DNA from: Hexactinellida sp. DTS-2022
Taxonomy: Eukaryota > Porifera > Hexactinellida
Assembly (NCBI GenBank): GCA_028753945.1
Contig: JAPNXP010000001.1
Location: 744,001 to 808,000, forward strand
Direction of reading: 5' to 3'
Length of the DNA stretch: 64,000 bases
Shown: positions 8,484-45,310 of the stretch, piece by piece
Numbering within the stretch: the first letter of the stretch is position 1
Layout of the letters: the number at the start of each line of letters is the position of its first letter
Notes under the pieces: model-generated
The model's input: only the letters and a program-made list of their open reading frames with translations
Told to the model about the DNA's origin: nothing
Database searches by the model: none
Translations under genes and position numbers: made by a program

Positions 8484-8617
8484 AAAATGTAGTAATTTCC
8501 GTTGGGTTAATATTTTACTATGGCTTTGGGGTAAATCCCAATCTGTTACGGATAGGACGGCCAGGTACATAATTCCATTCGTTAAAAGTGCATGTCAATA
8601 TTTAAACAAAAAATTCA

Positions 8618-11524
8618 ATGAGAACACTTAATCAATACATATACGTCCAATCAATTTGTATGTCTGATAATCGGTTAACCTACCACCGCCAGAAATTTGA
8701 AGAAGAAATCCTGCTTAAAAAACAGGAGCCGAAGTGTCGTATATGGAATTGCGAAGAGGTAGAAGACATAACTAACCAACTTAGCGATTTAGAGGGAACT
8801 TTTCCTAGAATTAATCGTTCTCTTAAACATTTTCATGTTCTCGAGGCCTCGCAAGTAAAGGAGCTACGCTACATAGACCCATACAATACAACATCTCTCA
8901 AAGTTATTGCGGTCGAGGATTTGTTTGAACAGCTGTATTGGGCATGGGAACAGACAGGATTCGCAGGGTGGAAACCTTTACACCACAAAATAAGGGAACA
9001 AGGAATGTACATCAGTGTTTTAGTAGTGAGGTTGTTTTTGGAACTTAGCCCTTCCCATCAAGCCAGGCTTAACAAAAAAAGCCAAAAATCTCTGGTAACA
9101 AATCCAATATTATCTCTTACCTTTGGTTCAAGGGGTCAGGTGGATCTTATTGACATGGGAAGTATTCCTGATAATGACTATAGATGGATTCTAAATTATC
9201 AAGACCACTTCACCAAGTGGGTTGTGTTAAAACCCCTATTTAGAAAATGTGCATTAGAAGTAGCAAATATTCTGGTTACAATTTTCTACACGCTCGGCGC
9301 ACCAAACATTCTCCAGTGCGACAATGGCAAAGAGTTTGATAATAAGCTTTTATTACAAACACTGAATAAATTGTGGCCATCAACAAAGATTATACATGGA
9401 AAACCTAGGAAGCCACAATCACAGGGTTCTGTGGAGAATGCAAATTGTCGTGTTGAGAATATTTTACAGAGCGTATTGGAAAAGGAAGGTCATTCCCATT
9501 GGGCTAACGAATTAGACAAAGTAGCATACATGAAAAATACCACACTGCATACGGTCCTAAACAATACTCCTTACAAGGTTCTCTATGGAAGAGATCCACC
9601 ACGAGGACTACGTGATTTTGATATTCCAACTTCTCTTCACGTTTCAATCAATACCGTGGAAGATATTAGTAAACTGTTTCCAAAATCTCAAACATTAAGC
9701 GACAACGAAGATGATATACAGCTTATAGAAAAAATTAACTCAGCATGTATCTCAAATACCACTCTAACACATTCGCCATATTCTTCTGAGTGCGACAGTA
9801 ACATTTCTGAAGAATCTGAAGACAATTATGACTTAACATTAAAATTTAGTCCTACAAAATTAGGCGCTACAGTCAACCACATAGCGGAGAGTAAATCGTG
9901 TCCAATTTGCAAATTTTCATTAGGAAGTGAATTCGTGGAGTGTCATTCATGTTTCTCACCTGGGCACAAACATTGTTTCAATGAGGATTTGGAAACATCA
10001 CACTATTATTGCATAAAATCACAGTGCATTAGAATGCAAAACCAAAACCAAATATGCTCTGTTGCAAGAAGAGGGCAAAAGAGGCAAGCGGAAAAGATGC
10101 TCTCTGATACTGCAAAGTCTCTTCCTTTAGTCTCAATTGGTGAAAACGTTAGAGTTTCAATTCCTAAAGTTGACAGGGGGAAACTTGGAGACAAGCACAT
10201 TCTAGGAGTCATCACTGAGAAAAATGGAATCTATTTCACAATTGGTACAAGATATGGCATATTAAATCGCAAGTACACAAGAGGAGAATTTGAAATATGG
10301 CAAGGATCAACATATCTTCATGTCTCGAACATCCCAAAAAATGAATGCTCAATGACTACCATTTCCAGAGCAGTAACTTTGGGAAGAAGAATTTCTTGTC
10401 AATGCAAAGGAAAATGTAACACAAAATATTGCCCCTGCAGAAGATCGGGAAACCAATGTTCGAGCGGTTGTCATTCTAAAATAAGAGGCAATTGCAATAA
10501 CAAAAGCTCGCCTCAGAAATCATTAATTGAGCTAAATACATCTGAAAAACGTGTCTCTATTCCTGTTACTCCTGAGAAGACATCAAAGGAAGAACAATCT
10601 AAACTTTCGGATTTTCCACCTATTCAATTAATTGATCACCATCCTCTTGAAAATGACGATTCGTTAGGTGTTGAAAGCTCAGATTGTGAGTCTTTGGACC
10701 ATCTCACATATGACACGAGTAGGTTAACAATGTGTTTGACTGAAATTGATCGATTTTGTGTTAGCTGGGGCGGGTGTTACAAAGGCATCAACATGATTAA
10801 CACTTGCAGTGTAGATAACTTTCTCACATTGATTAGTCTCCACCTTAGCCAGATACAAGAGGTTCTGACAAGCAGGGAAATTCCAATCAATGATAATATG
10901 AAAAATATCTTAGCATGCATTGGTTCGTTGAAGTTCAATTCATTACGCTTTTGGATAGCAAGAAAAATGGCCATTAAATGTGAAAATGATCAATTAAACT
11001 TCTTCGGATCAGAAAATAATATTGTCCAAGCATTAGTTAAGGCAGGATTAAGTACACAAGAATATCACTGCACGTTTCAATGCCCGCACTGTTCAAAGCA
11101 GTTTAATACAAAAACTCGCATCAACTACTTCACGACATTAATCGAAAATTTACAAACTACTTTGAACTCAAAAGTTGAGCCGAAATTTTGCAAAATTTGT
11201 CGATGGAAAGGTACACACTTCAAAAATGTGTCAGGGCGATTTCATCAACTTTCCCCATTACTAATTATTGAAGCAGATAACCTACAGATTGACGCAAATA
11301 TGATTGATAATGTCATTAACATGGACCACGGCAACAATATGTTAACTTTCAAACATATTGGTTATACACTCGTTTTTGGAAACCATTTCACTTTGAAAAC
11401 ATTTGTAAATCAGGATCTTGTTTCTTATGATGGAATGAGAAATCCAAAGATTCAAATCGACGAGTACTCCAAATTTCCTGACGTTCGCAAAGTAAATTTT
11501 ATTACTTACATTCTACTCCCTTAA
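8618..11524 (+). CDS. Ginger-type integrase with PHD-like, CXC and C-terminal protease-like domains
   Basis: 968 residues, ATG at 8618. Residues ~170-290 are a retroviral-type integrase core with the D,D,E triad visible in VDLIDMGS, QCDNGKEF and GSVENANC. Residues ~426-468 form a Cys/His cluster (CPICKF...CHSCFSPGHKHC) that looks like a PHD/treble-clef finger. Residues ~590-625 are a tesmin/TSO1-like CXC domain (CQCKGKCNTKYCPCRRSG...C). The C-terminal third has a Cys box (NTCSVDNFL, ~726), a CPHC/CKIC zinc knuckle pair and a His box (LVFGNHFTLKTF, ~922), the layout of a USP-like cysteine peptidase. Ginger transposases are known to carry accessory PHD or protease domains. The integrase call is firm. 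The USP-like call is inference from motif order. No stop or frameshift is seen. Confidence 0.8.
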   Translation: MRTLNQYIYVQSICMSDNRLTYHRQKFEEEILLKKQEPKCRIWNCEEVEDITNQLSDLEGTFPRINRSLKHFHVLEASQVKELRYIDPYNTTSLKVIAVEDLFEQLYWAWEQTGFAGWKPLHHKIREQGMYISVLVVRLFLELSPSHQARLNKKSQKSLVTNPILSLTFGSRGQVDLIDMGSIPDNDYRWILNYQDHFTKWVVLKPLFRKCALEVANILVTIFYTLGAPNILQCDNGKEFDNKLLLQTLNKLWPSTKIIHGKPRKPQSQGSVENANCRVENILQSVLEKEGHSHWANELDKVAYMKNTTLHTVLNNTPYKVLYGRDPPRGLRDFDIPTSLHVSINTVEDISKLFPKSQTLSDNEDDIQLIEKINSACISNTTLTHSPYSSECDSNISEESEDNYDLTLKFSPTKLGATVNHIAESKSCPICKFSLGSEFVECHSCFSPGHKHCFNEDLETSHYYCIKSQCIRMQNQNQICSVARRGQKRQAEKMLSDTAKSLPLVSIGENVRVSIPKVDRGKLGDKHILGVITEKNGIYFTIGTRYGILNRKYTRGEFEIWQGSTYLHVSNIPKNECSMTTISRAVTLGRRISCQCKGKCNTKYCPCRRSGNQCSSGCHSKIRGNCNNKSSPQKSLIELNTSEKRVSIPVTPEKTSKEEQSKLSDFPPIQLIDHHPLENDDSLGVESSDCESLDHLTYDTSRLTMCLTEIDRFCVSWGGCYKGINMINTCSVDNFLTLISLHLSQIQEVLTSREIPINDNMKNILACIGSLKFNSLRFWIARKMAIKCENDQLNFFGSENNIVQALVKAGLSTQEYHCTFQCPHCSKQFNTKTRINYFTTLIENLQTTLNSKVEPKFCKICRWKGTHFKNVSGRFHQLSPLLIIEADNLQIDANMIDNVINMDHGNNMLTFKHIGYTLVFGNHFTLKTFVNQDLVSYDGMRNPKIQIDEYSKFPDVRKVNFITYILLP

Positions 11525-12306: not shown

Positions 12307-15048
12307 TTAAATATGATGTACTTGTGCGATCTCGTCGTCGAAAGGGTCACAAGTGTCCTGCGCCACGTCAGGCAGAGAAGTGGACTCAGTGGAGCTCACG
12401 CGCCACGAGCCCAGGCGCTGGAGAATAGACTCAAAATTAATTCTCTTGGAAGCGTCCATGTCCCAGCACTCCAGCATGAGAGAGTAGATCAGCTGGGGAC
12501 AGTTGTCCGGCCGTGAGAGGATCTCGCCTCCTTTCACTTTCTCGATAACCTGCTCGTTCGTGAACCCATACCAGGGCTGCATCGCGAAAGAGAACACCTC
12601 CCACATTAGCACACCGAACGACCAGATGTCCGTCTGGATGGTCGCCTTTCCGTACATAATGGCCTCTGGAGCCATCCACTTTATAGGCAGGAGAGCTTCC
12701 TTTCCGATCCTGTAATAGTCCGACTTGTACACATCCTTGCTCATTCCAAAGTCCCCTATCTTTACAACCAGGTTCTTCCCCACCAAGCAATTCCTCGTGG
12801 CCAGGTCGCGGTGCACGAAACTCCTCACGGCCAGGTAGTGCATGCCGCCTGCGATCTGATTAGAAACGTTAACCAGGTCACTCGTGGAGAGGACGGGAGG
12901 GTCCTCCGATATCTCGCTCTCCGTGCGTGACAAAGCGGGCCTAGAGTTGTTGAATCGCTTTATGTAGCTGCTGGCACAACTCCGCAGGTAGTTGTTGAGG
13001 TCTCCCTTCTCCATGTACTCGAATATGAGGCAGAGCGGGGCCGACTTCTCCTTGAAAGAGACGCCCAGCAGCTGGAGGATGTTGGGGTGGTCGAACCGCA
13101 GCATTATGTCCGCTTCCCGCTCGAAATCCAATCTGTTCTTGGTAGTGGCGCCTTCGTGCAGCGTCTTAACTGCGACCAGCGTCGCCTTCTCTCCGGGGAC
13201 GATGGAGCTGGCTTCCGCGAGGTCCACGGAGCCGAACTGGCCCTGTCCGAGTTTTCGCAGGAAGCGGACGGCCGCGCGGGGGAACTCCTTCTTATCTGTC
13301 ATTGGAGTCTTGCTGTTGAAGGGGAGATAGAATTGGTTCTCGGCGACTTTGCTCTCAGTGAACTTTGAACTGCAGAGCTGCGGTTTGCTGATCTGTCGAT
13401 AGTACACCACGCACAGGGCAATAATGCCGATAACCACAACGACGATGATAAAGAAAATAATAACAATCCCAACAATGAGCGGCGTAATCGTACTAGAATC
13501 TTGGTTTGTGGGTTGCTTAACTGTCTGTCCGGGTGTCACTGGTACGAATGTGGAGGTTATAATCCCCTCGATGCCCAGCGGAACGCAGCTCTGCGGAGAT
13601 GACGTAATGTCCTCGCACTCGCGCAGCCAGGGAAAGCTCCGGAAGAGGTCGCTAACGGAGAACTCGGTCCACGCGTCTGCGCAGCTGCTGAACCAGAAGT
13701 CGAGGCAGTCCTTCTTGCAGAAGTCGTCGGAAGGAGAGACCACCTGGAGCGGGGCCTCGACCGGGTTGCAGGGACGGAACAGATTGTTGCACAGATACTT
13801 CATCCCCGCTCGGTAGCAGGGGTCCGACTCTAGCGTTGAGGTTATGGACAGGAGGTAGTTCTTGAGGGCCGCGGCCTTCTCCTCCAGCTCTGCGCTCATC
13901 AGGTAGTGTCCAGAGACGTCGCTGAGGAAGGGAGAGCAGTCGTTGATGATGACAAGCGCGCAAGAGGAGACCGGAACTACAGGGAGACTCGGAGTGACGT
14001 AGAGTGTGATTCCTCTCTTGTCAGCTGTGAATGTACCGTTAGGACTATTCGTGGCTGTGCAGTAGTAGGTACCTTCGTCGTCAACGGAGATTGATTCAAA
14101 AGTTAAAATGTTCTGGTTTCTTGTATAAGAATCGCTTTGTAGGTCATTGGAAGACAGAGACTTTGTCCATTCGAAGACAGGATCTGGGAACCCGCTAGCG
14201 CTGCAGATGAGAGTTATTGTCTCCCCGGCAGTGACGTTTCTGGACTCGGGGAGTCCGAATATCTCAGCCGGCTGGTGCTCTGCCACGAGAATAGCGTCTG
14301 ATACCTTATCCTTGAAAACTCTGTTAGTGCTGCAGTAGGACACAATCTGGAACTTGACGAAGGCCTGGAGAGATATCCCGCTCAGTCGGAACGAGTAGCT
14401 CCCAGCTGTCCCGTCGACAATGTTGATAGACTTCTGTTCGAGATGAATCCACTCAAGAGAGCTGAGTTCGCTAGGCGTCATCCAAGATTTGTAAGAAATG
14501 TTGAAATAAGTGAGACAATGCGGGCCCTTACTCGGATAGACTTTCCAGTCCAATTGCACTGCTCCTTGTTCGGGCGAGTAGAGGTCGTATGCTGAAGGTT
14601 TGGGGGGCATTTTCCTTGTATTAGAATTGATAGGAGGCTCCGGTGTAAGAGCGGAAGAGAAATCGTTTAAAATTGTTGTAGTCGCAGTCTCAGAAACAGC
14701 AATATTCGTAAAGAAAGGGTAGCTGCCTCTAAAACAGGCGACCAGTATATCTCCGACAGTTGCATAGGAACCTGTGAGAGAAGTGTTTCTCCACTTCAGG
14801 GTTCCCACCTCGGGGCCCTCCACGTACCGTATAACGAAGTTCTCAATCAAGAAATAATTATCCCCGTTTTTGTATTTCCAAGCGTAGACAACGTCTTCAT
14901 GCGTGAGGGTGCGGAGAGTAAGAGTGAAAGTCTCGTTAATTAATATTTCTATATTTCTTTCAGGAGAAATAGTAGTTTGGCATTGTATCTGAGAGAGCGA
15001 AATTATTTGGAACAAACAAACGATTGCGAAAAGACCAGAAGGGTTCAT
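12307..15048 (-). CDS. Ror/MuSK-like receptor tyrosine kinase (Ig + Frizzled-CRD + kinase), intronless
   Basis: Single exon of 913 residues with a signal peptide (LFAIVCLFQIISLSQIQCQ). An extracellular beta-rich region is followed by an Ig domain (~262-350; CSASGFPDPVFEW ... DEGTYYCTA). A Cys-rich domain of Frizzled/Ror type spans ~368-491 (CNNLFRPCNP, CKKDCLDFWFSSC). One membrane span lies at ~520-549. The kinase domain (~590-880) has GQGQFGSV, VAVK, HRDLATRN, DFGMSK, an activation loop with the paired tyrosine SDYYR as in Trk/Ror/MuSK, and KWMAPEA. Ig plus Fz-CRD plus kinase is the Ror/MuSK layout, though no kringle is seen. Likely a Wnt- or morphogen-responsive receptor at the cell surface. 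It lies on the same strand as TRPA exons on both sides, apparently inside a TRPA intron. Confidence 0.85.
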   Translation of the reverse strand: MNPSGLFAIVCLFQIISLSQIQCQTTISPERNIEILINETFTLTLRTLTHEDVVYAWKYKNGDNYFLIENFVIRYVEGPEVGTLKWRNTSLTGSYATVGDILVACFRGSYPFFTNIAVSETATTTILNDFSSALTPEPPINSNTRKMPPKPSAYDLYSPEQGAVQLDWKVYPSKGPHCLTYFNISYKSWMTPSELSSLEWIHLEQKSINIVDGTAGSYSFRLSGISLQAFVKFQIVSYCSTNRVFKDKVSDAILVAEHQPAEIFGLPESRNVTAGETITLICSASGFPDPVFEWTKSLSSNDLQSDSYTRNQNILTFESISVDDEGTYYCTATNSPNGTFTADKRGITLYVTPSLPVVPVSSCALVIINDCSPFLSDVSGHYLMSAELEEKAAALKNYLLSITSTLESDPCYRAGMKYLCNNLFRPCNPVEAPLQVVSPSDDFCKKDCLDFWFSSCADAWTEFSVSDLFRSFPWLRECEDITSSPQSCVPLGIEGIITSTFVPVTPGQTVKQPTNQDSSTITPLIVGIVIIFFIIVVVVIGIIALCVVYYRQISKPQLCSSKFTESKVAENQFYLPFNSKTPMTDKKEFPRAAVRFLRKLGQGQFGSVDLAEASSIVPGEKATLVAVKTLHEGATTKNRLDFEREADIMLRFDHPNILQLLGVSFKEKSAPLCLIFEYMEKGDLNNYLRSCASSYIKRFNNSRPALSRTESEISEDPPVLSTSDLVNVSNQIAGGMHYLAVRSFVHRDLATRNCLVGKNLVVKIGDFGMSKDVYKSDYYRIGKEALLPIKWMAPEAIMYGKATIQTDIWSFGVLMWEVFSFAMQPWYGFTNEQVIEKVKGGEILSRPDNCPQLIYSLMLECWDMDASKRINFESILQRLGSWRVSSTESTSLPDVAQDTCDPFDDEIAQVHHI

Positions 15049-16040
15049 TCCAAGTTGGATATTATCTTTCGGCTAAACTACAACTAATAAAAGATTACTA
15101 TCTGAATAACTACAGTTCTGTGTAATTACCATAATTTGTACCAATTGTGGTGCGCATATGACAGGGTAGAAGACCCACTGTGTTATGACAATTGCACGTC
15201 ACTTCACTTGCTACGGATTGAGAATCCTAACAGGAGCATCATTGCTAGCATATTAATTCCACTAACTGCCTCCTTGGCTGTGGGTCGCCAAACACTCTGG
15301 CTTCACTCCTCAATTCAACTTTCTTTTATTATTATTTTTTGACGCGAGACATAAGGATGCTTATAAAAGATGGCAAAGATGGCAAAGAAGTCAAACAGTA
15401 ATTGGAATTGATTGATTAATCTATTCAAGATTATTATAATATTTTCAAGTGGTTCTAACCACACATTCATATTAACAATTCTAGTTGCTAGCAGGAATAA
15501 CTAATATATTATGATATTATTAATTAATGTCGGATCAAACTGTCATGAATTGTAATGAATTCAACGTGAACAGTGTATTAGTTATTTATACTAAGTTAGC
15601 AATTATATCGGGAAGAAACGGAGTACGGTATTCTATTGAAATAGTAGAATAGATAATCCTTCCGAAGGATAGTATGAATTTAATAAGTTACGAATTAGTG
15701 GTTTGGTAAGAGGCAATTGTTATGTATAAATCTATAGGAGTTAATATTACAACCTTCACATTAAATCTTAATTTAAGCGTAATAATAATACAGAAGACTC
15801 TCGTTAGTATAGCCATGCCAAATACCGTGAATTCGTATATACACTGTTTCGTTCCCTATCGGAGCATTTTGATAGTTAGTAATACCTATTACAGTGGATA
15901 CCGGCTATAAGAACATCGTCGGGAACTGCATATAATACACAACTTATGTCTATCAGCACTAGTATGTAGCCGCCGGTTGCAAATCCGGTATTCTCGGGCT
16001 AGTCGGCTGTAGCATAAGAGCATAATAAAACTGAACGCAC
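15049..16040. other. Non-coding stretch upstream of the kinase gene
   Basis: It holds the presumed kinase promoter and 5' UTR and a partial MITE at 15890-15931. No supported exon is seen. Confidence 0.5.
15890..15931 (+). repeat. TACAGTGGATACCGG MITE family, left-end fragment
   Basis: TACAGTGGATACCGGCTATA followed by AGAACATCGTCGGGAACTGC matches the left end of the fuller copies at 19482-19603 and 23686-23835. Only this end is recognisable here. Confidence 0.65.
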
Positions 16041-37838: not shown

Positions 37839-40800
37839 ATGAAGTCGCTTTTCCTTGCTAGCCTGCTCATCCTCTTACTAGCAAGCTACTTGGTAAGCTC
37901 AATATTATCTAAGTACGTGTATCGAAATCTTATTATACCCTAATATTGATAACTTGATAAATTGATATTTTTAATATTTTAATCTTTATACAGGAAGAAA
38001 CAGCAGGCACTGGCGAACTCACTATTGATTATATATCATTCGATTCAAGAGCAAAAGACTCCGATGGAAACGATTGCGACCTTTGTTGCTGTTTTTTCTG
38101 TACACAATATTGTGATCCAATCATTAAAATATGCCTCAGATACGGACACTCCACTTCTACATTTTTCTGTAGCTCGAGTGGAATAGTCTATCCTCAGTTA
38201 ATGCCAGATGAGTATTTAGATACTAATAAAGTCATATTTGGTACGCTTATCGATGGAAAGGCTAATCCTGTTGTGTATTATACTGGCAACCAATTCGACG
38301 TGAGTCTATTATTACTGTTATTACCAGTATTAAATCATAAAGTTTGCACAAATATGTAACTAGTCTGTTGTATTGTCAGCTTGTCTTGATTTAACTACGA
38401 GGCATTTAATTATCTTGAATACGAGCCCTTCGGTCTCGGTCGCTTTGCGACGGATCGGTACTACGCACCTCAAGTTAACGGCCGCTGTGCGGCCTTACTC
38501 CTCACCCTTTCTACCATGGAAATGGCAGTTAGGGAGTTATATACATCCCTTTAGAAAATTTCCATAGTTTTAACTTGTTTTTCAAATTCTAAATTTATAA
38601 ATGCGAAATTCGTGTTCATCATACTTGTTTACCTATAATACCCGTTGAAGCTAACTTCTAGGTTGATTTTGAATTTCATTAATTTGTTTACCATTTTGTG
38701 TAAAACAACAAATATTCATATTAGAAATTTATAAGTGCGAAATTCGTGTTCAGAATACTTGTTTACCTATTATAACATTTGTTTACCAATTATAACATTT
38801 GACAGTTAGTTTATATTTAATATATTAATGCGGTTTCTATTCCCCCATCACCTAAGTCTAATACAATCCGGACAAACAAACAAACACACCACAACAATCG
38901 AAATTTAATAATATAGATGTATATGTATACTAATTTAACCTTTCACTAGGGTAAGTTTGAGATAACATTGGATGTTACTGATGGAGACTTTGGAACGGGA
39001 GATGACGATATCGATACCGTCATTATAAGGCAGACCGTTACAAGGGGTTCGGGCTTCACCGCTGCATTGTCTTTCCCTGGGTTGCGGACATCTTATGTGA
39101 CTGCAACTGTTATAAGATATAAACTTGTGTGTCACGCTAACTACTACGGTTCCTATTGTACTGTATTCTGTGTGGCTCATGACGACAATAGTGGGCACTA
39201 CATATGTAACTCTCAAACAGGAGCCAAGATCTGTATTACAGGTTACAGCGGCGCAAATTGTGACATCGGTAAGTCTATACTTATACTCAGTCACCCAAAT
39301 AGGAATAAGTTCTTAAACTTCTAACGTCTCTATAGGAACATGTTCTACTGGTTTTCAATGGAGTGTAGCTAGTCACAGCTGTGTAGATATAAATGAGTGT
39401 TTGACAATTCAATGCTATCAGATGTGTGCCAACAGTATAGGCAGCTACCAGTGCTCTTGTGGGGCGGGCTACTACTTGTCTAGCAACATTGCTTGTAGCG
39501 TTATAACGTTTTCTACTTTGGCAACGGTATCTGCTCTCTCCAGCAGCTCTGTTCGTCTCGCTTGGCAAACTACCTACACTCCGGCAACACACACTGTCTC
39601 CCTCTCTTACAAAGCGTATTACCGCATCCAAACAACTTCCTCCTACACCTATTTCGGTCAAACGACTGGTCTCCAAATCGACGTAACTGGTCTCCTGCCC
39701 TACAGGAACTACGAGCTCTACCTCACAGCCATCGGCAGTCTCGCTACCACAGATTCCAACGCAGTTACTGTGCGGACCAATCAAGACGTGCCCAGTGAGC
39801 CTCCTGGCGGGCTGTCCGGCTCAGCCATCAGTGCCACGGAAATAACAGTCTACTGGTCTGCTCCCAGTACGGGGTCGCAGAACGGGATTCTAACTGGCTA
39901 CGTTATTCTGGTCAACGCTACCTCCAACTCGGAACAGGGATGGACCATAACTGAATTAGAAATAAGCGCTTCTACGACTTTCTACACAATTACGGATCTG
40001 GCAGCTTATAAAGAGCACTTGATAAGTGCGCTGGCTGCTACCGCTGTCGGCAGAGGGCCCCAGAGTGCCTTTATCTCAATCCGCACCCTCCAGAGCGCCC
40101 CCTCCGCGCCCCCTCTCGTCTCCCTCGTCTCCACCACTGCCACCGCCATCACACTCTATCTGCAGCCTCCCGCCAACCCCGACGGTATCAATGGAGTTAT
40201 TATCCACTACCTGGTCACGTACTCTGGTGTCGGTGTCGACACATCCGTGCGGAGCGTGCGCGAGATGCCCCCGGCAGACGACTATCTGTCGGCTGTCAGT
40301 GGGACGCTGTCTGCTCTGCAAGAAGGCGTTTCTTACACCATCAGCGCCGCCATGTATACGAGTGTGGGCGGCGGCCCCGGGTCTGACGTCATCACCGCGA
40401 CAACAGTGGAGATAGCGCCCACTGACACGCCTCAGAACATCCAGTTCGGCGCTGTCCTGACCAGCAGTTTCTCTCTCGCCTGGGACTCTCCCCCCGCGCA
40501 AGAACAGAACGGAGTTATCCTCGGGTACCGCGTGGCCTACAGAGGAGTTGTCATTGACACTCAGTGGAGAAACACGACGCTCGCGACAAACAGCACTACT
40601 GTGGCTAACCTCAGTGTCGGCGCTGAGTATCTATTCTACATTTGTGCGTTCAACAGTGCTGGAGAAGGTCCCTGCATTTCCCTAACTAAGAGGACGCTAG
40701 AACTGTTGCCCACCGGAGCCCCAACCATGCTTAAAGTCGAGAACAGAGCCTCTACCTATCTCTCCCTTTCTTGGTCTGCTCCCCCTATTCTTACGCTTAA

Positions 40801-43800
40801 CGGAGTTCTTCTAGGCTACACCTTAGAGGCGATTGGCCAGCAATACATCGTACCTGATTCCCTGTCTAACGTCAGTGCTACAACTTTGTTCTACCAATTC
40901 ACTGGCCTCGAAGAGGATTACAATTACACCATAGTGATCCGAGCATGGAACTCAGTTGGTTACGGTCCCAGCGCAGAACTGAATGTGTCCACCACTGAAT
41001 CTTCCCCCGAAGGCTCTCCCTCCAACTTGACCGCTGTTTCCACTGCCACCACCATCACGTTTAAGTGGAAAGCTGTGCCTGCCGATCAACAAAATGGCCA
41101 ACTTATTAACTATGAAGTGACTTACTTTACCCAAGCACCATTCGTACAACACACTCACATAGATACTAACGTGTCCGCAACAGAATTAGAGTACACAGCT
41201 ATTGGACTGGAAGAATACGTAATGTACTACTTCAGAGTTAGATTGTATAATGCCGCCGGCCCGGGTCCGTACAGCACTGAGCTAAGTGTGAGAACCGACC
41301 AGGCCCTGCCCTCCAACATGCCCACTAACCTGCTACTCACAGTCCTATCTTCCTCTCAGATACAAGTTCAATGGGGACCCGTTTCTCCCATAGACCAGAA
41401 CGGGCCTATAACAGGTTATGACGTCATTGTATCTGTCTCAGCTCAGCAGACATTATACTCTACAACATTAACTAGCTACACATGGGCCTCCCTTATTCCC
41501 TTTACTCTATACTACTTTCAGATCAGAGCGTACAACAGCGTGGGCCCTGGTCCTAACAATACTATCTCAGGCACAACCAACCAGGCGCCCCCGTCTGCTG
41601 CCCCCGCGCAGCTCTCCCTGCTGCTAGTCACTCACAGCTCTGTCAACATATCCTGGTACCCGGTCGCGCCCTCCTCGCTCAACGGAGTCTTCGTCAGCTA
41701 CAGTGTTCAAGTCACCGACACTAACACAGGAACCTCGTTCTTACACACCTCCATAACTTCTCTCACGCTCATCTCAGGTCTCGCTTCCTACACCACCTAC
41801 TCACTAGCCGTAGCAGTTATTAACTCCCAGGGAGCAGGTCCCTACTCCGCGCCTCTGCTCTTCGCTACCAACCAGTCGGCTCCCGCTCAGGGGCCGGACA
41901 TACTCTCCGTCACTCACTTGTCTCCTTCCAGCGTTCTGCTGCAGTGGACACACGTGCCCTCCCATCTACAGAACGGACCGGTTATATCCTACACACTCAT
42001 AGTCTCTACCAATCTAGGCGCTCTCCTGGTCTCCTCTCTCAGTCTCTCATCCCTCGCGAACTCCTCTACGCTGACAGATCTACACCCTCACACAGAGTAC
42101 ACTGCACAGCTGACAGCTACCAACATAGCCGGCACCAGTCCGCCCTCCTACGCGGCATTCCTCACCAATCCAGACGCGCCCACTGGCCCCCCTACCTCCC
42201 TCACAGGGACGCCCTCCTCCACCGGCGTGCTCCTGCTGTGGCTGCCCCCCCAGGCCTCAGAGCAGAACGGGGTTATCATTCTCTACTCCGTTCGAATCGG
42301 TTCTGTCACCAACACCACAAGCGCGACAGAGTACACATTCCTGGGTCTGCAGGAGGTGATGGCGTACGAGTTTAGCGTGGCCGCTTGGACTAGCGTCGGG
42401 ATAGGCCCCTTCAGTGCGGAGTTATCTGTGACTACCCTCGCGGCAGCTCCGACCGCAGCGCCGCAGAACGTGACAGGCACAGCTGAGTCGTACCAATCTA
42501 TCCTAGTCAACTGGTACCCTGTGCCCGCTATACATCAGAACGGAGAGATCACCAACTACGTCGTACACTACCAGGGCCAAGAGCACGACACCAGCGAGAG
42601 GAAGCTAATGCTCAGTGTCACCAACACTCAGACCACTCTAACAACTCTCAAACCCGATGAGGTGTATTCCATCTTCATAGAGGCTCAGAACTCCGAAGGC
42701 ACCAGTCCCCCCTCTCCCCCTATAAACATAAAGACGCTAGAGGGACTGCCTACTGCTGCCCCCACTAACATACTGCTAACTGCTACCTCTCCATCTTCCT
42801 TTACCGTGACGTGGGTGGGTATAGAACCGCAGCACCATAACGGGCTGCTCCTGCAATATGAAATCGTTTTTCAAGGTTCGGTTTTTGACACCTCTCAGCA
42901 ACAAATAACTGTAGCTTCGGATGCTACGTCTGCTGCAGTGACTGGTTTGCATCCGGCAAACGAGTACACTGTGTTTCTGCTGGCCTCAAATATAATTGGC
43001 AGCGGGCCGAATTCTGGTACGGTCTCTATTTTGTTGCCCGAATCTGTGCCTAGCTCAGCTCCTACTTTTGAAGATGTCACTCCAGGGTCCACAACAATAC
43101 TACTCGTTTGGGGACCAATTGATGCCATCGATCGTAATGGAGATATTATTCATTACGAGATTCGGTACACTGATAATCTCATTAATCCAACTGACAGTGA
43201 ACAGAGCTATATAATAGTCAGCGCACCAGGTCTAAGCGTTACGCTATCAGGCTTGCTGATTGACACGTACTACCAAATCCAAATACGAGTTTCCAACAAC
43301 GCTGGCTCGGGTCCCTTCTCATCGGGGTATTTAGTTTCGACTGCGCACCACACCTGTACAGTCTGTGTTCACGGGACATGTACTATAGTAAGTGATGAGA
43401 ATATATGTATGTGCAATCCTGGCTATACTGGTGAGACCTGTGACAGCAACATAGACGACTGTGCCGATGTGACCTGCGTGCATGGTTCGTGTACGGACGG
43501 AGTTAACAGTTATAGTTGTGAATGCGACAGCGGCTTTAAGGGACAGCTCTGCGACCTCCTAGCGAGTACTCCTACTTGCGCAGAAGAAACGAATCTCAAC
43601 TTATTATGGCCAGACACAGCTTATGGAGATATAGCTGTTATTCCTTGTTCCCAGTCTGACCCGCTGTTATTCGGTGACGCGAGTCGTGCATGCACATCTG
43701 CCGGCACCTGGTCATCTCCTGATGTGAATGAGTGTAAGAAGTTTGTCTATGTTGGATTAGACCCGAATTCGGACGTAGATGAACTCACCCCCACAACTGC

Positions 43801-45310
43801 TCTTGACAGTCTTAATAAGCTCCAGGCTTTGGTCTGTAACGACTCGAATAATCCTGATTCTGGTCCCTCATTCTTTCCAAGTGAAATAGTAATCGTAGTC
43901 GCCTTTATAGAAGAACTTATCGTTACGGTTAAGAATCAAAATGAATCTGGTCGTGTTGAATTAATGTCAGAGTTGATGCCTGGTATTATGTGCATCCTAT
44001 CTAGTATTCTCGACTCAAGAAATCTTGAAATATTCTCTCTTGTGAATGGATCGTCGAATGCTATTTTGATTAACGGACTCTTAGAGGAGATTGCAAAACT
44101 AAACGCGGATAATTTTGATACCTCTAGTAGTGAACCCATCCTCTTTACAGAAGATAACATTAACATCTACATATCTCCTACTGCCGCACAAGCTGTCACG
44201 CTACCAGATTACACGCTGTCAGCTGTCAATGCCTCTGGCTTATACCCAGACAGTGTAGTCATTCCAGAGAGTGAGGTGGCAGCTCTGTTTTCAGAATTGA
44301 ATGGAGGCGTGCCAGTGATAGCTATTGTATTCAGTCGCTACCTCGGCCAAGCGATCGGCACTCAATCTCTAAGCTCTGACATAGATTCTACTTCTACTAT
44401 CAGCACTGGGGTCATATCGATACAAAGCAACATAGGAGATGCTCTCACCTTTTCCTCACCCATTTCTTTAACTTTCGCGCAACTCACTTCAACTGAATTT
44501 TCTTCCGAATTAATCTGTGTGTATTGGGACAGTTCGCAAGGCTGGACTACCTCTGGGCTGAGCTTGTCAGAAGAAGGCACTAGTTCTGTTAGCTGCTATA
44601 GCACTCACGCTACTAGTTTCACCGTCCTTCAAGCGTATTCCGAGACAGCTGCTAGCTCACAGTTAACTACCTTTGCCACCGCTGGAGCTGGAATTGGATT
44701 GCTGTGTTTGTTAGCGGTTGTGTGTTGCTGTCTGTGTCTGTGCGCATGTCTGGTCCGTCGGAGGAACAAGAAGGATGTTGAGACCATACACGGGCAGTGC
44801 ATCGACCCTTTCCGACAGCTAGACGGATCCATTGTGAATCCGTTATACGGGTCCACTGCTAACACGCTTCCAACCAAGGACGGCAGTCCGAAGAAGGCAG
44901 AGTACGAGCCCATGCAACTAACGCAAGAAAATCCGTATTGCTACAGTTTCACTAAGCTGGAGCCAGGGGAAGCAGGCGTAGACACTTTCATCGCACAGGA
45001 GACGGTACGGAATAGTGGTTTATACTCTAGCATCGACTATGCTTGTCATGTTGATAACCCGTATTCAGAAATCAAGCCTGACCCCTCAATGAATCCTTTC
45101 ACAGAAATGGTTGGAGAAGAACCCATATTACCCTCACCGACCGGGCTCAACCCATTTATACACACCAGGCCCGAATCCAGTGACGATAGTACAAACCTAG
45201 CTGCAGAATTCTCTCTCCTCTCTAATCCAATATATTCCCAAGACGAGCCGAGTTCCTCTACCCCTTTCCAGCACGTTGTCTTAGAGAAAGAAACAGATAA
45301 TGATGTCTGA
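37839..45310 (+). CDS. Chimeric DSL-EGF-FN3(13)-EGF(2)-HormR-GAIN/GPS single-pass membrane protein
   Basis: Four exons: 37839-37892, 37994-38299, 38950-39268, 39336-45310. All introns are GT-AG with phases 0, 0 and 1, giving 2217 residues. Exon 1 is a signal peptide (MKSLFLASLLILLLASYL). Exon 2 resembles the MNNL (C2-like) domain of Delta/Jagged (CCCFFCTQYCDPIIKICLRY). Exon 3 ends with a DSL domain (YKLVCHANYYGSYC ... GHYICNSQTGAKICITGYSG). Exon 4 encodes one EGF (DINECLTIQCYQMC), 13 FN3 domains (~280-1563, each with PxxP-start and QNG/NG turn), two EGFs, a HormR-like domain (~1637-1694; SRACTSAGTWSSPDVNEC), a GAIN-like region, a degenerate GPS (~1953-1993), one TM (~2004-2033) and a 184-residue tail with NPLY, NPYSEI and NPIYSQ. 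DSL ligands bind Notch; GAIN/GPS belongs to adhesion GPCRs. Here there is no 7TM domain. Likely a cell-surface adhesion or Notch-ligand-like molecule. Confidence 0.85.
38300..38949 (+). other. Intron 2 of the chimeric DSL gene, with internal duplications
   Basis: The 650-bp intron contains a locally GC-rich patch (about 38420-38530), a duplicated ~50-bp block (38590-38640 and 38725-38778; GCGAAATTCGTGTTCA ... ATACTTGTTTACCTAT) and a 20-bp tandem pair at 38761-38800. No coding content is supported. Confidence 0.6.
38590..38800 (+). repeat. Local duplication and 20-bp tandem repeat
   Basis: Two copies of a ~50-bp block containing GCGAAATTCGTGTTCA, followed by two near-identical 20-mers starting GTTTACCWATTATAACATTT. 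Confidence 0.75.

Follow-up and report, generated by a model that had tools for sequence, protein, structure and literature searches.

Notch ligands of the DSL type and adhesion G protein-coupled receptors (GPCRs) are treated as separate systems, despite the report in 2025 that, in C. elegans, LAT-1 binds LAG-2 and tunes Notch in cis (PMC12255766). Here we describe a gene of the glass sponge Hexactinellida sp. DTS-2022, located in a stretch of 64,000 nucleotides (GenBank assembly GCA_028753945.1, contig JAPNXP010000001.1, positions 744,001 to 808,000; hereafter, the window), whose predicted product carries the characteristics of both. This protein carries a C2-DSL head, probably derived from Delta, on a rod of EGF and 13 fibronectin type III (FN3) domains and on a HormR-GAIN-GPS stalk. 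It is probable, in our view, that it descended from a seven-transmembrane (7TM) receptor and that it serves as a contact molecule independent of G proteins.

As in the DSL ligands of Notch, the window protein has a signal peptide, a C2/MNNL-like and DSL head with an EGF domain behind it, and a single transmembrane (TM) helix. In those ligands, however, the rest of the ectodomain is a rod of tandem EGF repeats, whereas here one EGF is followed by 13 FN3, HormR and GAIN/GPS, and residues of the Notch face are replaced. By contrast, the region close to the membrane recalls adhesion GPCRs of the latrophilin, BAI and CELSR types, with which it shares an adjacent HormR-GAIN-GPS, His at position -2 and Thr at position +1 of the predicted cleavage site, a helix at the position of TM1 and a tail resembling the one found in a 7TM relative, although it differs from them by the absence of TM2-7, by Ala at position -1 and by two GPS cysteines, where a review speaks of four (PMC13197933). 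The single-helix (1TM) variant of Drosophila Cirl also places an adhesion-GPCR ectodomain on one TM, but it belongs to a receptor that has a 7TM form as well, while the window 1TM protein is encoded by a separate gene (PMC13197933). Among the papers listed in searches of the open-licence PMC literature, none was found to describe an adhesion GPCR with a DSL head, or any protein in which DSL occurs together with GAIN, HormR, 7TM or an FN3 rod; both parents are known kinds of protein, and it is their joining that appears undescribed there. According to the initial annotation of the locus, no described protein is known to combine these parts, which agrees with the papers searched but not with the public databases, where two proteins of the glass sponge Oopsacas minuta (P0003 and P0055, see below) already stand under the names "PTPRQ-like isoform" and "Delta-like protein" given by their sources.

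Gene structure and single-helix relatives

From the window sequence, a gene of four exons on the forward strand was reconstructed, with GT-AG at every junction and intron phases 0, 0 and 1, and its product of 2217 amino acids consists of a signal peptide, a C2/MNNL-like domain, DSL, EGF, 13 FN3, two EGF, HormR, GAIN/GPS, one TM and a tail of 182 residues (Table 1). This reconstruction and the Pfam matches bear out the domain order, joined by in-phase introns, of the initial annotation. Among the profiles that it had proposed as a check, DSL, FN3, HRM and GPS were matched, but MNNL gave no match at E<=1 and, for the window protein, no match to the GAIN model was listed (a weak one was found in P0003).

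The same order is observed in O. minuta. P0003, 51% identical to the window protein over its whole length, and P0055 both have a DSL head, 13 FN3, GPS, a His-Ala-Thr cleavage site and one helix. When the part of P0003 near the membrane was scanned alone, GPS was matched at 1.1e-8, and GAIN (3.5e-5, 23.8 bits) and HRM (1.7e-4, 22.4 bits) under the Pfam cut-offs; the HRM of P0055 was not scanned apart. By eye, the first 88 residues of P0055 contain an integrase-like stretch that precedes what is likely the signal peptide and that probably results from an annotation join. Additionally, P0002 is 83% identical to the window protein and has HRM, GPS and one helix in a model without the head, and P0111 is a head fragment in which the edges of exon 2 are, by eye, identical to those of the window gene; the contigs of both have an equal length of 1,267,389 and are therefore probably one and the same, in a second species. 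Orthologues with the same order, proposed as a check in the initial annotation, were thus found, and the protein is not a one-off: the 1TM form represents one branch within a small family, of which a 7TM version is present in the same genome and in O. minuta.

Regarding the extent of this family, a search with the P0003 head covered proteins of about 1188-3780 residues and gave 56 matches, for which the precomputed domain lists contain DSL in P0003 itself and in P0055 and none in the other 54. This search missed P0006, a carrier of a DSL head whose precomputed list is without DSL, and consequently it does not show absence outside glass sponges. The window head alone, used as query against proteins of about 156-495 residues, gave two matches.

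Two possible errors of the gene model were considered and rejected. Against missing 7TM exons stand the single exon that runs from GPS to the stop codon and the 276 bases between this codon and the next long frame of the forward strand; against a mis-joined gene stand the O. minuta proteins P0003 and P0055, each of which holds all domains in a single model, and the intron phases common to the window gene and its relatives. It is therefore very improbable that exons 1-3 come from another gene, or that the single TM marks an incomplete 7TM gene, even though P0002 and P0111 are predicted as two separate models in the second species and the gene model is predicted from genomic sequence, which also counts among the points against our reading that are weighed below.

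Seven-helix sister genes

The best DSL match of the genome lies on contig C7, where a DSL exon (5.4e-17) is followed by a single open frame of 2391 residues, in which EGFs, 12 FN3 stretches, further EGFs and finally 7tm_2 (1.8e-13) are matched. Its part near the membrane, scanned alone, matched GPS (2.1e-7) and HRM (1.1e-4; 23.0 bits, cut-off 26.2), and there are seven hydrophobic segments beyond the GPS. Similarly, P0006 of O. minuta, one deposited protein, combines DSL (1.7e-16, obtained by scanning its first 120 residues), HRM (25.9 bits, cut-off 26.2), GPS (2.6e-6) and 7tm_2 (4.8e-10). By eye, two introns are common to the window and C7 genes, one before the second C2-like half and the phase-1 intron after DSL, so that the acceptor and donor of exon 3 agree in position and phase; a partial copy of the window gene at C1:10.72 Mb has the same two introns and also the exon 2 acceptor. 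A DSL head, EGF, an FN3 rod, EGF, HormR and GPS are consequently found in one protein in the window, P0003 and P0055 (1TM) and in C7 and P0006 (7TM), although the HRM scores of P0003, C7 and P0006 do not reach the Pfam cut-off. We propose that they represent a small glass-sponge family of DSL-headed adhesion-GPCR-type receptors. The C7 gene is arguably more striking than the window gene itself.

The head and its possible partners

Residues 23-236 of the window protein align as one block to Drosophila Delta (7alk; phmmer, E=1.2e-14). The MNNL-like domain of the initial annotation is supported by this alignment, but not by Pfam. It has been reported that, among sponge Deltas, MNNL is predicted in just one of five Amphimedon proteins, its cysteines being kept nonetheless (Schenkelaars 2017, PMC5684314); in this genome, MNNL is scored in both tandem Delta-type genes of contig C3 (8.4e-7 and 9.8e-10).

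The Notch face of Jagged1 is formed by F199, R201, R203 and F207 (PMC3415683). When this numbering is placed on the sponge sequences through the conserved cysteine and GH, the window head (CVAHDDNSGH, versus CRPRDDSFGH in fly Delta) keeps F199, while R201, R203 and F207 are replaced, as they are in all three complete 1TM heads (CIAEDSTSGH twice in O. minuta). By contrast, Arg is retained at R203 in both C3 Deltas, where the codon is split by an intron and both junctions read as Arg, and in both 7TM heads. Phe is found at F207 in none of these four proteins, P0006 having Tyr there. Because of the three replacements, canonical Notch binding by the 1TM head, which the initial annotation had considered possible, seems doubtful, and the replacements also count against our own reading, although the genome's own two Deltas, which likewise lack F207, show that the Notch face is loose in this animal.

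These observations bear on two alternatives. In the first, the protein would be a trans-acting Notch ligand: the head would bind an opposing sponge Notch, endocytosis through the tail would open it and the FN3 rod would replace the EGF rod. The homology of the head to Delta across C2 and DSL, the NPxY and NPF motifs of the tail, a Notch-type locus on contig C18 and the Notch core reported from glass sponges (PMC5684314) agree with such a function; the replaced residues, the two ordinary Delta-type genes of the genome and the presence, by Pfam, of one EGF after DSL and then FN3 do not, and we consider it rather unlikely. In the C18 frame, two LNR (6.4e-17) occur together with ankyrin repeats (1.1e-24), and NODP is matched weakly, from which the locus can be read as a Notch-type receptor; the search for the NOD family gave nothing in this genome nor in the controls and is, hence, uninformative on its presence.

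In the second alternative, the protein would be a receptor of immune type or for general adhesion, whose DSL fold has taken on the role of an ordinary binding domain for proteins or glycans, with no link to Notch. The loss of the Notch-contact residues, the strong divergence of the paralogues and the existence of additional DSL copies, of which one is joined to FN3 and another is short, agree with this; however, the head still aligns to Delta across C2 and DSL, and the same genome encodes a Notch-type receptor besides its two Delta-type genes. This alternative is possible, if somewhat doubtful.

The HormR-GAIN-GPS stalk

The HormR-GAIN part of the window protein matches CELSR1 and ADGRL3 by sequence (ADGRL3, E 8.2e-5). 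Its predicted structure (366 residues) has a mean pLDDT of 57, with residues 185-295 below 50, so that the fold ranking alone was used: in this low-confidence model, the first six Foldseek matches are all adhesion-GPCR ectodomain structures, with BAI3 at the top by Z (15.1; root-mean-square deviation 11.5 over 266 residues) and with a deviation of 11.0 in the wide-coverage alignment to latrophilin 1. Together with the HRM and GPS matches of Table 1, this ranking agrees with the HormR-like and GAIN/GPS-like regions that had been noticed initially.

The usual cleavage tripeptide of adhesion GPCRs is His-Leu^Ser/Thr. All four 1TM proteins have His at -2 and Thr at +1, with Ala at -1 in each of them, and the two GPS cysteines are present in the eight proteins compared. 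An engineered one-helix ADGRE2 (ADGRE2-1TM) has been observed to produce the cleaved N-terminal fragment and to reach the surface, the extent of its cleavage not being quantifiable (PMC12488864).

Probable loss of six helices

The single-pass nature of the protein, proposed from the beginning, is confirmed by hydropathy, which gives one TM, and by the lack of a 7tm_2 match in the window protein with Pfam. In a survey of GPS in the genome, at least 27 loci were scored, in frames that end at introns, so that low helix numbers are partial: the window is the only one of the 27 in which GPS, one helix and a tail share a frame. At 24 loci, the frame of the GPS also holds two to eight hydrophobic segments, at L010 it is without a helix, and L027 could not be read. 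Additionally, the C-terminal half of a 7TM relative matches the window locus over query residues 4-415 of 621 only, that is, approximately up to the first helix.

In a tree of the HormR-GAIN-GPS part (13 rows, with an arbitrary root and several long branches), the four 1TM proteins group together (94/94) and join the 7TM proteins P0004 and P0005 (100/99), while in each of the nine rows other than the 1TM proteins the GPS precedes seven or eight hydrophobic segments. As HormR-GAIN-7TM is reported to be present in choanoflagellates and filastereans (PMC12716839), 7TM is the older state; the GAIN on a single-pass receptor, presented initially as a peculiarity of this protein, would then be a derived loss of TM2-7, since DSL-headed 7TM versions exist in the same genome and in O. 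minuta. From the sequences compared, it is very probable that the 1TM form was left with TM1 and the tail after the loss of TM2-7, and we regard this descent from a 7TM receptor as well supported.

The tail points in the same direction. Its similarity to the tail of the 7TM protein P0005 reaches a score of 92, compared with a mean of 34.9 (standard deviation 5.8) and a maximum of 58 in 1000 shuffles, and its score with the 7TM P0004 tail is 77 (shuffle maximum 68); the P0002 and P0005 tails score 73 (shuffle maximum 72). The motifs NPxY, NPF and YxxM are of PTB, EH and PI3K type, respectively, and the window tail has two, two and one of them. A kinase-type receptor tail was considered and is not favoured: the tyrosine motifs of the tyrosine-rich tail first described are indeed there, but they are no evidence for a receptor of this type, because a similar tail is present in a 7TM relative.

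Some results weigh against the reading that we prefer. The similarity of the window tail is not significant with the C7 tail (score 42, reached by 84 of 1000 shuffles) nor with the P0006 tail (score 32, reached by 490), and the same is true of P0003 with P0004 and P0005 (169 and 121 of 1000 shuffles). The arbitrary root and long branches of the GAIN tree limit what it says on direction, and the support of the 1TM clade is just below the star of the tool. Among 7TM proteins, P0004 and P0005 are the closest relatives, but their models start in EGFs and no DSL was seen in them, while the C-terminal half of P0005 found no close match in this genome; consequently, a DSL head in the 7TM ancestor is only a possibility. 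In a tree of the heads (nine rows), those of 1TM and 7TM proteins are not united (67/70), and all DSL-headed receptors may, but need not, share a single origin. Finally, Ala at GPS position -1 departs from the usual tripeptide, and the 7TM region of ADGRE2 has been found to aid cleavage, which could not be quantified in its 1TM form (PMC12488864).

Possible mode of action

We infer that the window protein is a contact molecule that works independently of G proteins. In this model, the partner of the head, which may be Notch or a different protein, would sit on a neighbouring surface. The load would be carried by the FN3 rod and GAIN, and coupling of the NPxY/NPF tail to endocytic or PTB/EH adaptors could exert a pull on the partner. 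If cleaved, GAIN, a domain type for which a dissociation force of 10-20 pN has been reported (PMC13197933), would set an upper limit to the pull and could shed the head; the sensing of force at GAIN, suggested initially, is plausible in the light of this literature.

Another alternative is a function within the same membrane, where the protein might be a decoy, a cis-regulator or a 1TM co-receptor acting on Delta, Notch or the 7TM sister. Pairing with this sister, as the 1TM and 7TM forms of Drosophila Cirl appear to pair (PMC13197933), is the main alternative to our reading and might also accompany it. LAT-1 is reported to act on LAG-2 in cis via GAIN/RBL (PMC12255766), and 1TM and 7TM DSL proteins coexist both in this genome and in O. 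minuta; however, the window GAIN is distant from that of latrophilin, as the ADGRL3 match given above indicates. We consider such a role a tentative possibility. A more speculative and quite unlikely extension would be a two-part contact system in which the 7TM form could translate engagement of its head into signalling via a G protein, and the 1TM form pulls by its endocytic tail, GAIN being a breakaway coupler that limits the force. If true, it would represent the genetic fusion of two proteins, a DSL ligand and an adhesion GPCR, that bind in cis in C. elegans, and a single contact would signal in both directions in an animal whose tissue is syncytial.

A natural DSL-GAIN fusion, in 1TM and 7TM forms in this genome and in O. 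minuta, is independent evidence for a functional tie between both systems and makes this tie directly testable, and a conserved, gene-encoded 1TM derivative of an adhesion GPCR beside its 7TM sister offers a natural experiment on receptors without 7TM.

Genomic setting

Table 1. Location of the features of the window gene and of related loci in the genome (positions without contig refer to the window)
Feature	Position	Strand	Basis
Exon 1: signal peptide (MKSLFLASLLILLLASYL)	37839..37892	+	hydrophobic N-terminus, GT donor
Exon 2: first part of C2/MNNL-like domain	37994..38299	+	AG/GT sites
Exon 3: remaining C2-like domain and DSL domain	38950..39268	+	AG/GT sites
Exon 4: EGF through stop codon	39336..45310	+	single open frame
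C2/MNNL-like region, residues 23-180, split by intron 38300-38949	38006..39129	+	phmmer to Drosophila Delta 7alk
DSL domain, residues 181-225	39130..39264	+	PF01414 E=2.5e-12
Calcium-binding EGF, residues 244-273	39386..39475	+	PF07645 E=2.5e-6
13 FN3 domains, outer limits approximate	39509..43345	+	PF00041 E=3.5e-129, 13 stretches
Two EGF domains	43346..43564	+	PF12661 (hEGF), 2 stretches
HormR/HRM domain, residues 1640-1695	43574..43741	+	PF02793 E=7.9e-7; fold like class B HormR structures
GAIN domain, limits approximate, GPS motif at 44513-44629	43742..44640	+	PF01825 (GPS) E=8.5e-8; fold matches, low-confidence model
Predicted GPS cleavage tripeptide His-Ala^Thr, residues 1984-1986	44606..44614	+	comparison of 1TM proteins
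Single TM helix, residues 2007-2035, at TM1 position of 7TM relatives	44675..44761	+	hydropathy
Cytoplasmic tail, 182 aa: NPLY, NPIY, two NPF, two NPY, one YEPM	44762..45307	+	likeness to P0005 tail
DSL-headed seven-helix adhesion GPCR, sister of window gene (L055, L056)	C7:3036693-3046036		DSL and 7tm_2 matches
Two tandem Delta-type genes (L064, L065)	C3:4954417-4961907		DSL and MNNL matches
Partial copy of window gene (L057): C2-like, DSL, EGF, two FN3 stretches	C1:10724257-10729036		
Short C2-DSL locus (L059), frame seemingly interrupted	C12:2360683-2362146		

Seven DSL matches were found in the genome, including the two tandem Delta-type genes, a DSL-EGF locus on contig C8, the partial copy at C1:10.72 Mb, downstream of which no further FN3 frame was noticed, and the short C12 locus, whose counterpart may be P0110, a predicted protein of 241 residues. 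The two Deltas contrast with the one reported from the transcriptomes of O. minuta and Aphrocallistes vastus (PMC5684314). The searches for DSL, GPS and Notch (LNR) matched none of 14 control genomes of unspecified taxa.

Regarding the surroundings of the gene, no Rfam match was found in the window, and a search of the phage collection gave none. Three more GPS loci (L021, L022 and L015; C1:642111-728827) lie upstream of the window, at a distance of up to about 102 kb. Positions 12307-15072 of the reverse strand contain a receptor tyrosine kinase with Ig, a kinase match of 6e-89 and a weak Fz-like match (3.4e-4, under the cut-off), which we take to be ROR/MuSK-like. The genome appears to belong to a lineage for which an absence of Wnt ligands has been reported (PMC5684314). 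Finally, an open frame at 8606-11524 of the forward strand has a weak match to an integrase core (rve, 8.8e-5, under the cut-off).

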